Assembly (NCBI GenBank): GCA_017962745.1
Contig: JAGCUR010000016.1
Location: 62,001 to 126,000, forward strand
DNA: 64,000 nt
Direction: 5' to 3'
Source of the DNA: Bacilli bacterium
GTDB taxonomy: Bacteria > Bacillota_I > Bacilli_A > ML615J-28 > CAG-698
Made by a program: the position numbers and the translations under genes. This document shows positions 43,660 through 51,308 of the stretch, piece after piece. How positions within the stretch are numbered: the stretch's first letter is position 1; every line of letters starts with the position of its first letter. The notes below the pieces were generated by a model that was given only the letters and a program-made list of their open reading frames with translations, was not told where the DNA came from and did no database searches.

Positions 43660-46539
43660 TTATTTGAATAAATTCTTAGTAACTTTGAATAATTCTTTAT
43701 TCTCTTCAATCTTATTTTCATTTCCGATTGTACAAATACCACTTGTCTTTAAGATTTCCTCAAATAAAGGTTTTAATGCTTTAATATCATCAATTGTACA
43801 ATTGATCATTTTATTTCTTTCTTCTATGATTTGCTTACTATCTACATTAGTTAAATAAGCTATCATTGCCACATCACCTTTTCTCTTTGGAGGAAGTGGA
43901 GCATCGATATCACCAAATGTACCAATGATATAACCAGTAATATCACCGCTTAAACTATCGATATATTCAGGAATCCTCTTAAATACTTCATAAGTTTCAG
44001 CTAGTTTTGGGTCACGATAAGATCCTAACATGATATCGCCTTCTCTTGTAAAGTTACAAGTGAAGCCATATGCACCACCAAGTACTCTAACTTGGGTCCA
44101 TAAATAATCATATTTTAAAGCCGTACCAAGTACTCTTAAAACTGGATTATACTTAGAAATATTAGCATAACTACCTGCTAAGCAAGCGAATTGAACAGTT
44201 GAGCTTGATTTGAAACCTTCATTTTTGAATTCAGGTACAAATTCAAAGCTACCTGCTTCACATTCGCCACTGTATAAGCAGTTATTAAAATCTTTAACTA
44301 ACTTTTCTTCAATACGATTAGGGTTAGTATATGAATAAATTAAGTTTTCTTTTCTAAAGATTATCTTTGCTAACTTCTCTAGATTTTCTTTAAATTCAGA
44401 GAATCTTTCTTCAAAATTAGCTTCTAAATCTTCAATAAACTTATATTGATCAATTCCTGAGATTAACTCATTATATTTAGCAGACTTTTTATAATAACTT
44501 AAAGCTCTACCGATACCAGCACCCATACCACTAGCAGCTAACATCATTTGACCGCGTGATTTGTCTTTAGCTACGATTTCATATAAACGTTTCTTATCAT
44601 CAAATTTAGAAGTTTTGATGATTTCTTTTACCATATCAAAAGCAAATTCAGTCTTTGATTCTAATACTCTAACATCAATATTTAAATAAGGTAGGGCATC
44701 ATCAGCATTTGCATATGCTTGAGCTGCAAAATTAATACCACCAGTATTAATTAATATTTCATTTGATAATTCAGAATAGTTGTAATGTTCTGTAGATACA
44801 GATCCAAGTACACTAGTAAGTAATCCTACATATGGAAGTAAGTCGTTACTTACTTTAGAGAAATCAAACATAAATGTGATGTAGTTAATACCATTTGTGA
44901 ATAAATCGTGGCGAACTAGTTTAGTTCCATCGATTTCCACACAATCATTTTTAACTTCATCTAAATCTTTCTTAATATCATTAATTGTAAGTCTAGGAAG
45001 TTTAGCTAAATCTTCAGGGCTTGATGGACTTCCTTGATATTCTTTTAATGCTTTTGTATCGTTAATTAGTTTTTCAATTTGTTCATCGCTTAGGCTAGCT
45101 TTGTAATTAGCTAATTTTTCTGCTACTGCTTTTTCACGTTCTTCACCTAAAGTGTTAGAAGGTGAACATGTAACATAAGCGATATGGTTATTATTTAATA
45201 AATATTTTTCAATAATTCCTTCAAAATAATTACCATTTGCATCATTTCTTAACTCATCAAATACTTTATTAGTTAATAATCTATTGAATGGATCATTATC
45301 ATCATATAGCCATGTTTCAAGCATACCAATCGCATAGAATAAACCTTTTGGTGCGCCACCAAAATCAGCTTCTCTAATCTTAAAATCATAGTAGTTAATA
45401 GCAGCAAGTAATGCTTTCTTATCGATACCTTCTTTTACGATTTTACGAAGTGTTTCATTGATAATTCTAGCGAATTCTTCTACTTTTCCATCTTTGGCAT
45501 CTTTTACTTCAATTGAAATAACTGGTTGAAGAATGCCTGAATCATAACTTGACATTACATCTTTACAAATACCACTATCAAGTAATGCTTGTTTTAGTGG
45601 AGCACCTGGCATATCAAGTAATGCATAATTTAAAATACTAAAAGCATTAGCTAGTTTTGTATCACCATTTTCCCCAATTAAAACATTATATGAATAATAT
45701 GTTTTATCATCTAATGATTCATCTTTACCAACTGGATAGTATATTTGTTCGTAACGCGGTTTATCAAATGGTTTTTGATAAGCAATTTCACTATGAGGCT
45801 CAATTTTATCAAATTTAGATAAATATTCTTTATCTAACCAATCAATCTTTTCTTCCATATTCATATTTCCATATAAACAAATATATGAATTAGATGGATG
45901 ATAATATTTAGAATGGAAATTCTTAAAGTTTTCGTAAGTTAAATCCGGAATAAATTCAGGATCGCCTCCCGATTCTACTCCATATGTAGTATCTGGAAAT
46001 AGTGCATGCATGCTAGCTCTAGCTACTACTTGTTCAGGAGATGAGAAAGCACCTTTCATTTCATTATAAACAACACCATTATAAATGATTGGGCTATCTT
46101 TATCTGCTAATTCATAATGCCATCCTTCTTGTTTGAAGATTTCTTCGTGAAGGTATACATTTGGATAAAATACGGCATCCATGTATACTTCCATCAAATT
46201 AGCGAAATCTTTATCGTTGCATGAAGCAGTTGGATATAAAGTCTTATCCGCAAATGTTAAGGCATTTAAAAATGTATTTAGCGAACTCTTCAATAGTTCT
46301 ACAAACGGATCTTTAACTGGGAATTTCTTTGATCCACATAATGTAGAATGTTCTAAAATATGAGGTACACCAGTATCATCAGTAGGTGGTGTTCTAAATC
46401 CTACTTGGAATACTTTGTTTTCATCATCATTAGCTAGTAATACTAGTCTTGCACCACTCTTATTATGTTTTAAAAGAGTAGCTTTTGAATGAATTTCTTC
46501 GATAAATTCTTCTTTAATAACTGTATAGTTTTTATTCAT
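43660..46539 (-). CDS. M16C family zinc peptidase (presequence protease-like)
   Basis: A 959-residue cytosolic insulinase-type peptidase that degrades peptides inside a closed chamber. The inverted zinc motif HILEH is at 60-64 within DDTGVPHILEHSTLCGS, followed by PFVELLKSSLNTFLNALT typical of the M16C/PreP branch. The third-ligand region lies in YNEMKGAFSSPE. The length fits the fused two-half architecture of M16C. AGGAGG precedes the ATG and TATAAT lies at 46572-46567. Confidence 0.92.
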   Translation of the reverse strand: MNKNYTVIKEEFIEEIHSKATLLKHNKSGARLVLLANDDENKVFQVGFRTPPTDDTGVPHILEHSTLCGSKKFPVKDPFVELLKSSLNTFLNALTFADKTLYPTASCNDKDFANLMEVYMDAVFYPNVYLHEEIFKQEGWHYELADKDSPIIYNGVVYNEMKGAFSSPEQVVARASMHALFPDTTYGVESGGDPEFIPDLTYENFKNFHSKYYHPSNSYICLYGNMNMEEKIDWLDKEYLSKFDKIEPHSEIAYQKPFDKPRYEQIYYPVGKDESLDDKTYYSYNVLIGENGDTKLANAFSILNYALLDMPGAPLKQALLDSGICKDVMSSYDSGILQPVISIEVKDAKDGKVEEFARIINETLRKIVKEGIDKKALLAAINYYDFKIREADFGGAPKGLFYAIGMLETWLYDDNDPFNRLLTNKVFDELRNDANGNYFEGIIEKYLLNNNHIAYVTCSPSNTLGEEREKAVAEKLANYKASLSDEQIEKLINDTKALKEYQGSPSSPEDLAKLPRLTINDIKKDLDEVKNDCVEIDGTKLVRHDLFTNGINYITFMFDFSKVSNDLLPYVGLLTSVLGSVSTEHYNYSELSNEILINTGGINFAAQAYANADDALPYLNIDVRVLESKTEFAFDMVKEIIKTSKFDDKKRLYEIVAKDKSRGQMMLAASGMGAGIGRALSYYKKSAKYNELISGIDQYKFIEDLEANFEERFSEFKENLEKLAKIIFRKENLIYSYTNPNRIEEKLVKDFNNCLYSGECEAGSFEFVPEFKNEGFKSSSTVQFACLAGSYANISKYNPVLRVLGTALKYDYLWTQVRVLGGAYGFTCNFTREGDIMLGSYRDPKLAETYEVFKRIPEYIDSLSGDITGYIIGTFGDIDAPLPPKRKGDVAMIAYLTNVDSKQIIEERNKMINCTIDDIKALKPLFEEILKTSGICTIGNENKIEENKELFKVTKNLFK

Positions 46540-46573
46540 ATTAGCCTCCTCAAGTCTATTTATTCCATTATAA

Positions 46574-46603
46574 CAAAAAAAGTTATAGTTTAAAACTATA
46601 ACT
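46574..46603 (-). terminator. Terminator of the structured RNA gene
   Basis: AGTTATAGTTT (46581-46591) pairs with AAACTATAACT (46593-46603), 11 bp with a one-base loop as drawn. On the minus strand a run of T follows (46580-46575); on the plus strand eight T follow after CA, so it can work both ways. It separates the RNA gene from the M16 peptidase promoter. Confidence 0.85.
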
Positions 46604-46789
46604 CATTTTTTTTATCAGCCCAGAAAGCCGTTAATACGCATGTGGACCATAAAGTTCACAGGGTGGATGTCTCTTGCGTAGCTTCGGGATTCTCTGCAGG
46701 GGGGCAAAGCGTTCACGCCCACTACACCTTGACTTCCTAAAAATAAAATGTTCGGCGCGCAATATAGTATAAATGCGAACTTTCCAGGT
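46575..46789 (-). ncRNA. Structured small RNA gene of about 215 nt (family not identified; 6S-like candidate)
   Basis: A non-coding stretch richer in G and C than its surroundings, with its own perfect promoter and terminator on the minus strand. The expected transcript begins near 46789. The ends pair: CCTGGAAAG (46788-46780) with CTTTCTGGG (46627-46619), then CGCAT (46777-46773) with ATGCG (46641-46637). Inside, GTGTAG pairs with CTACGC, and GGGC with GCCC around a small hairpin. Length, closed-end stem and single-gene transcription resemble 6S RNA, but I do not see decisive family sequence. It lacks the SRP RNA signature, a tRNA-like end (tmRNA) and RNase P conserved blocks. A 74-codon open frame here is not credible. 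Confidence 0.65.
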
Positions 46790-46795
46790 AATTTC

Positions 46796-46824
46796 ATTAT
46801 AGTCAAAGATATTTTATTTGTCAA
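46796..46824 (-). promoter_or_regulatory. Perfect consensus promoter of the RNA gene
   Basis: TTGACA (46824-46819), a 17-base spacer and TATAAT (46801-46796): identical to the sigma-70/sigma-A consensus at all twelve positions. It is the strongest-looking promoter in the window and drives no protein gene, which supports an abundant RNA product. Confidence 0.9.
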
Positions 46825-46852: not shown

Positions 46853-47551
46853 TTATTTAATTAATGTAAATAATCGTCTAGTCTCTTTTGCCTCATTTGG
46901 CCATGCATAATAATCTATTTTTAGATCTTTAAAATACATCTTAAAGATACTGATCCACTCTTCATCAGTCATTGAATTTAGTCTTAAAACCCCATCGATA
47001 AAGACAAGTGAGCCACTAACTTCTGCTCCTCTATTTTTCATTAAAACGGGATCTATATAATAATTTAGCGAAAATATTACCTTTGATCCTTCTTTTACTA
47101 CTCTAGATGCTTCTTCTACAATCTCTTTTGCCATATCAAGCGGAATTACATCAATTACATTAGAACAAAACAACCCATCATATTTATTGCAATCTTGTTC
47201 CTTTAGCCATTCTTTATCAATAGCAAAAGCGCTTATTTTATCGTTTACCTTAAAACCTTCACAATAAGCTTCAACCATTAACTTTGCATTTTTAGCTACA
47301 TCAACCGCATCAATATGGCTTACTCCATTTTTAGCCATAATGATTGATGCCCAGCCACTTCCGCAGCCATAATCTAAAACATTTCTGCATCCTTTAAAGC
47401 TAGCAATTGCATCATGTTGTTTTTGGGATGGTGCTAAAGATTTATAATCAACATCTGGATTAATTGATTTAATGATTTCATCCTTATCTTCTTCACTAAT
47501 TCCAAAACCTTTATTCCAAAACTCTACTAAGTTTAAATAAACATCTTTCAT
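46853..47551 (-). CDS. Class I SAM-dependent methyltransferase
   Basis: A 232-residue methyltransferase of unknown substrate. Motif I is NVLDYGCGSGWASI (about 58-71), followed by HIDAVDVAKNAK (motif II acidic residue), YDGLFCSNVIDVIP and a UbiE/Methyltransf_11-like C-terminal half. AAGGTGA precedes the ATG. It appears to be transcribed alone, upstream of the RNA gene, whose promoter begins about 30 bases past its stop. Confidence 0.82.
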   Translation of the reverse strand: MKDVYLNLVEFWNKGFGISEEDKDEIIKSINPDVDYKSLAPSQKQHDAIASFKGCRNVLDYGCGSGWASIIMAKNGVSHIDAVDVAKNAKLMVEAYCEGFKVNDKISAFAIDKEWLKEQDCNKYDGLFCSNVIDVIPLDMAKEIVEEASRVVKEGSKVIFSLNYYIDPVLMKNRGAEVSGSLVFIDGVLRLNSMTDEEWISIFKMYFKDLKIDYYAWPNEAKETRRLFTLIK

Positions 47552-47811: not shown

Positions 47812-48030
47812 CATCATTTACAAACTAACAGTACACCAACTGATAACCCAATTATTGAATCTTTAAATGGTTGGATAAATGAAGAATTGTATAAAGATTT
47901 TAAACTATATAAATCAAATAATATTTATAAAGCAATAGATGATTATATTGCCTACTTTAATAATGAGCGGCTGGCTTGTACCCTAGGGTACAAAAGCCCC
48001 ATTCAATATAGAACTGAATGGGGTTATTAA
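47812..48030 (+). pseudogene. IS3-family transposase remnant (C-terminal part)
   Basis: The only plus-strand coding trace in the window. The frame ending at TAA 48030 translates as TPTDNPIIESLNGWINEELY, then YIAYFNNERLACTLGYKSP and IQYRTEW. This is the end of an IS3-type DDE transposase (PTDN...E with the final Glu, then the FNxxRxxxxLGYKxPxxYR tail). The catalytic core upstream is missing or unreadable, and no start exists. The 3' end of the gene contains an 18-bp perfect palindrome and a CCCCATTCA/TGAATGGGG hairpin. Confidence 0.75.
47976..48024 (-). terminator. Palindrome and hairpin used as likely terminator of the 5'-nucleotidase gene
   Basis: CCCCATTCA (47997-48005) pairs with TGAATGGGG (about 48015-48023), and on the minus strand GGGGC is followed by TTTTG. 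Just beyond, TTGTACCCTAGGGTACAA (47976-47993) is a perfect 18-bp palindrome. Both lie in the transposase remnant. Confidence 0.5.
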
Positions 48031-49918: not shown

Positions 49919-50728
49919 TTATATTAATCCTTTCAAAAATACAATTATTCCATTCAGTACTTCTTCGTTAGAAACACCTAACCAATTTTTATCCGATGAA
50001 GATAATCTATCAATATATACTCGATTACTAAATGTACTTTCTAGTCTGCTAATGATGTCATTTACATTCTTTTCTTTCATCTTATCATCATCAAATATTA
50101 ACACCTTAAATGCATTGATAGTCTTTTCCTTATTTACGTTTGATATTAAATAATAGATATCATAAATATCTTTATATCTTGTGGATAGGAAACCAAACTT
50201 TAGAATTGACTTTAATTTTTCTGCTAATATTTGTTCTTTAGAATTAATAAATAGTGTAGCCCCACCTGTATCAAAAGAAAGATCAAAGCAGTATTCTTCT
50301 TGTACTAATTTTACATATTTATGAACACCAATATCAATCTTACTTGTTAGTGCATTATTAAACACATCCTTAATGTTTATATATACTCTTTTTCCTTCAT
50401 AATCTTGATGTTTAAGTTCTTCAGGAATACCGATAACATCAATTCTAATTCCCATGATTCCATTTAATGACTCAATAAAATTAGTAATGCCATCATCAGT
50501 TAAAGGATATCTAATAAAATCAAGGTCAATATCAAGAGTTGCCCTACGAGTATTATTAGTTATACTTCGCATTACAACTCCACCCTTTATTGTTATATTA
50601 TTAGCATAAGCACTTTTTGATATTAATAGCAAAATAATATCTTGACATAGTTTTGCATCGACATATTCGCCTTCATATCCTTCTTTCTTTATTGAGTTCG
50701 TTAATTCTAAAATATTTATGTTATCCAT
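49919..50728 (-). CDS. AbiEii-type nucleotidyltransferase toxin
   Basis: A 269-residue toxin of the type IV toxin-antitoxin/abortive-infection system AbiE, which transfers nucleotides to tRNA in characterised members. Motifs: KGGVVMRSI...TRRATLDIDL (nucleotidyltransferase G-[GS] and the D-x-D pair, about 48-70), then KIDIGVHK, AEKLKSILKFG and RYKDIYDIYYL. The ATG overlaps the TGA of the upstream antitoxin frame (TGATG), with AGAGGT inside that gene. The toxin gene is intact although its antitoxin frame has a premature stop. Confidence 0.87.
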   Translation of the reverse strand: MDNINILELTNSIKKEGYEGEYVDAKLCQDIILLLISKSAYANNITIKGGVVMRSITNNTRRATLDIDLDFIRYPLTDDGITNFIESLNGIMGIRIDVIGIPEELKHQDYEGKRVYINIKDVFNNALTSKIDIGVHKYVKLVQEEYCFDLSFDTGGATLFINSKEQILAEKLKSILKFGFLSTRYKDIYDIYYLISNVNKEKTINAFKVLIFDDDKMKEKNVNDIISRLESTFSNRVYIDRLSSSDKNWLGVSNEEVLNGIIVFLKGLI

Positions 50729-51270
50729 CAGAGTACCTCTTCTTGAATTATTTTAAGAATCATATCCTTCTTAGGAAAGTCTTTTAAAATATCTATTACT
50801 TCTTGAAAATTAATTTCGTTAACATTCTTGCGATAATAATTGATTAATTCTTTATAGTAGTCTTATGCAATATCATGTTTATATCTTATTAATTCAATTA
50901 ATAATCTTTCTTTTGAGTAAATATTTATTTTAGTTCCAAAATACTCAAATGAAGTAACACCAAGATATAATATGTCATTATCCATAAAGAACTGTTTTAT
51001 AGCTGGATCATTATATTTAGCCCCATTTTTATTTGAGGCTATATAATACTTATCAGGAATAACATCGCTTATACCATAATAATAAAAAGCAGATTTGAAA
51101 GTGAATATTGGGTTATTATATTTCTTTACAACAATATCTATTTCTTTAACTGATTTGGTTGCTGAATACAAACCATTATCTATTTTAAATATTTCTTCTT
51201 TTTCAATAGCTTTCTTTAATTTGTACCAATTACCATACTTTTTAATTATTTCATCATAATCATAAATCAT
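50728..51270 (-). pseudogene. AbiEi-type antitoxin/regulator with premature TAA
   Basis: Cognate antitoxin of AbiEii. The N-terminal winged-helix part (MIYDYDEIIKKYGNWYKLKK) and the AbiEi body (FTFKSAFYYYGISDVIPDKYYIAS, IYSKERLLIELIRYKHDIA) are followed by TAA at 50865-50863. In the same frame the sequence continues DYYKELINYYRKNVNEIN to EEVL and TGA, the family's normal C-terminus, overlapping the toxin start. Position suggests TAT or TAC (Tyr) mutated to TAA. The short form has 135 residues; the full frame would have about 180. The ATG at 51270 has AAAGGTGA just upstream, so an in-frame ATG 18 bases earlier is not used. The truncated product may still bind DNA. Confidence 0.8.
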
Positions 51271-51308
51271 AAGGTCACCTTTGAGCATTTAACCACAAAA
51301 TATTATTT

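Follow-up and report, generated by a model that had tools for sequence, protein, structure and literature searches.

The minus-strand locus at 46575..46789 almost certainly represents a 6S RNA gene (ssrS) of the B. subtilis 6S-1 type, an ordinary member of a known family and not a new class of RNA. 6S RNA is the small RNA by which many bacteria restrain their main RNA polymerase during slow growth. All positions refer to the window, i.e., the whole stretch of 64,000 nucleotides that was analysed, in which the gene and its signals are arranged as follows:

46575..46789, minus strand: 6S RNA primary transcript, about 215 nt, both ends predicted from the sequence
46613..46793, minus strand: match to Rfam RF00013 (6S / SsrS RNA), full model 1-187, 51.2 bits
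46796..46824, minus strand: predicted sigma-A promoter of the 6S gene, TTGACA-17-TATAAT, kept in relatives
46575..46602, minus strand: predicted intrinsic terminator, a 9-bp A+T-rich hairpin with a 3-nt loop followed by T7, also seen in a same-genus relative

The initial annotation had proposed 6S RNA as its best guess, together with a covariance-model search. This search, a cmscan of the window against all of Rfam, yields RF00013 as the sole match in the window, clear and over the whole model, with 51.2 bits (gathering score 46.4 bits) and, for the window as a whole, E 2.7e-7. A lineage model (see below), built partly from this very locus, scores it at 148.6 bits. The margin of only about 5 bits over the RF00013 cut-off would also fit a new housekeeping RNA class that resembles 6S RNA in size and closing stem only, as would several relatives that fall below this cut-off or are missed by RF00013. 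However, the match extends over the entire length of the 6S model, the locus contains a matching pRNA template motif as well as a hairpin on the 3′ bubble side, and the lineage model places genomes without an RF00013 hit in the same family. We thus reject a new class. The initial annotation, which had considered one possible, had itself named a clear match to a known family as the result that would take away the novelty. The assignment to 6S RNA is supported by the RF00013 match, by conservation with covariation in the lineage, and by a pRNA template motif like that of B. subtilis 6S-1 with its GUUCGG start.

The predicted promoter and terminator delimit a putative independent sigma-A transcription unit, about 200 nt in length. 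The window contains a single perfect site, TTGACA-17-TATAAT at 46824-46796 (chance expectation 0.17), in agreement with the perfect sigma-A promoter described initially, for which no strand had been given. The promoter matches at 12/12 positions in the same-genus relative and at 8 to 12 of 12 positions over 22 aligned rows, with the -10 element mostly 2 nt ahead of the aligned 5′ end. Counted from the inferred +1 (A, position 46789) to the last T of the terminator run (position 46575), the transcript would span the previously claimed 215 nt. Its ends, already noted as paired, form the closing stem CCUGGAAAG/CUUUCUGGG. The terminator hairpin is formed by GUUAUAGUU/AACUAUAAC (9 bp) and is followed by seven T. 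Hairpin and T-run of the terminator formerly called strong are thus present, but its strength was overstated because the stem contains just 2 G-C pairs; a terminator scan requiring 3 G-C pairs does not list it. Promoter, closing stem, and terminator are all kept in the same-genus relative.

Two further observations concern the terminator region. With a relaxed threshold, further Rfam families such as MIR405 and Clostridium-PBP match in and around this region, but far below their respective cut-offs, and were rejected as chance matches. Moreover, a promoter-like site on the minus strand (TTTAAA-16-TATAAT with TG, 46567-46594) overlaps the 6S terminator and stands directly ahead of the M16C peptidase gene, in a region conserved in the same-genus relative (L020). 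Consequently, the 6S terminator and the next promoter may share sequence.

The RNAalifold consensus of the 22 aligned sequences, computed independently of the Rfam structure, adopts the rod-shaped fold with a closing stem, a large central bubble, and a terminal stem-loop, all conserved with strong covariation over the 22 rows. Standard pairs occupy 91.7% of the consensus cells versus 79.7% upon shuffling, and 19 of the 30 consensus pairs display changes on both sides. None of 500 shuffles reaches the observed pairing values, while sliding the partners reduces pairing to 35-49%. The single-sequence folding z-score of the window copy is modest (-1.75). The RNA gene postulated initially is confirmed as real. 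Folded locally, the window copy and most relatives additionally show a small hairpin in the bubble:

46642..46659, minus strand: GUGAACUUUAUGGUCCAC, small hairpin in the 3′ side of the central bubble

B. subtilis 6S-1 RNA has likewise been described to form a short hairpin on this side of its bubble (PMC8876501). In the window RNA, the opposite bubble side harbors the putative template for product RNA (pRNA):

46750..46755, minus strand: CCGAAC, 5′ side of the central bubble, predicted pRNA template (nt 35-40)

Transcription from this template is predicted to start with 5′-GUUCGG at nt 40 of the inferred transcript, generating the pRNA GUUCGGCGCGCAAUAU, the reverse complement of the 5′ bubble side. 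GUUCGG is identical in 21 of the 22 aligned rows, the exception being GUAAGG in one relative (L027), and equals the start of the B. subtilis 6S-1 pRNA, 5′-GUUCGGUCAAAACUA (PMC12005410). Two pRNA hallmarks described for lactic acid bacteria, an adenine directly upstream of the start and GG at positions 5/6 (PMC8414754), are both found at the window locus, the GG in the predicted pRNA. A lineage-specific 6S subtype seems improbable. In such a subtype, GUUCGC would have two alternative partners, GCGAAC beside the template and CGAAC within it; the latter pairing would create a 5′-bubble hairpin that conceals the start of the pRNA and might thereby control release. Such a hairpin is seen in several relatives folded in isolation and weakly in the window copy.

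Among 60 relatives of the window genome, 33 give an RF00013 match at E <= 0.001, and 26 of these 33 exceed the gathering score. The lineage model was built from the alignment of 22 Rfam-found sequences of the same family and order, including the window locus, with 15 rows derived from the window's own family. It detects a full-length copy in 26 of the 28 family genomes (one each, E 1e-26 to 9e-43), of which 15 are part of the model alignment and match by construction, while the other 11 are independent. Among the 12 family genomes without an RF00013 match, the lineage model gains ten (G004, G006, G007, G010, G011, G012, G013, G017, G019, and G026) and leaves two, G020 and G027, in which it finds no 6S RNA; G027 is 61% complete. 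Since RF00013 missed these ten genomes, a seeming lack of 6S RNA in groups of this kind can be a false negative. Beyond this point and the retention of 6S RNA, with a pRNA start like that of B. subtilis, in a small-genome Bacilli lineage, the finding amounts to routine annotation.

A second, 6S-2-like copy was sought in the window's genome with both RF00013 and the lineage model, and none was found. Three relatives carry tandem 6S pairs about 55 to 120 nt apart, which we regard as local duplications (G034:C102, L008; G048:C25, L003; G052:C1, L002). A weak second lineage-model match of 77 nt and 27.8 bits in another relative (G014:C7:17549-17625, L123) possibly reflects a degenerate copy or chance.

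Open frames of 74 and 43 aa exist on the minus strand and overlap the 6S gene, yet the probability that they constitute a short protein-coding gene is close to nil. The 74-aa frame begins upstream of the promoter, and in the same-genus relative 1-nt indels and stops break the frames, while the RNA features are retained there. A Pfam search of both ORFs returned no match. Because of the missing Pfam match and the disrupted frames, the protein-coding reading was rejected, in line with the initial view that the locus holds no credible reading frame. The 6S RNA gene is instead flanked by two protein-coding genes:

46853-47551, minus strand: class I methyltransferase gene, upstream of 6S
43660-46539, minus strand: M16C/PreP peptidase gene, downstream of 6S

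The same-genus relative (L020/L031) shows the order methyltransferase, 6S, peptidase as well; at the remaining loci inspected, neither of the two proteins turned up within some 1.5 kb of 6S. At 47887-48030 on the plus strand, 47 aa of an IS transposase integrase core remain (rve_2, E 4.5e-10), apparently from an insertion sequence that has decayed. An AbiEii-type nucleotidyltransferase toxin gene (E 2.4e-18) and an upstream 141-aa gene occupy 49919-51288 on the minus strand. The 141-aa gene has no Pfam match and lies where an AbiEi antitoxin would be expected; the two genes likely form a type IV toxin-antitoxin pair.

Since the pRNA start, the hallmarks, and the 3′ bubble hairpin are as in known 6S RNAs, the RNA is expected, by analogy with the family, to sequester sigma-A RNA polymerase and to release it through pRNA synthesis. 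The RNA would fold as a rod whose central bubble resembles an open promoter, and would thereby sequester sigma-A RNA polymerase when growth slows. Upon return of nucleotides, the polymerase would copy a short pRNA from the bubble, starting with 5′-GUUCGG, and this synthesis would refold the 6S RNA and free the polymerase.

With RF00013 6S / SsrS RNAs, the window RNA shares the full-length 1-187 match, the closing stem, the central bubble, the terminal stem, and its own promoter and terminator, and it differs from them by ordinary sequence divergence alone. With B. subtilis 6S-1 (bsrA), it shares the first six nucleotides of the predicted pRNA, GUUCGG, and the small hairpin in the 3′ bubble side. 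In contrast, the pRNAs diverge past nt 6, with CGCGCAAUAU predicted here versus UCAAAACUA in B. subtilis. Further, the window genome encodes one 6S copy versus two in B. subtilis, and, unlike bsrA, the window 6S gene adjoins the M16C peptidase and methyltransferase genes.
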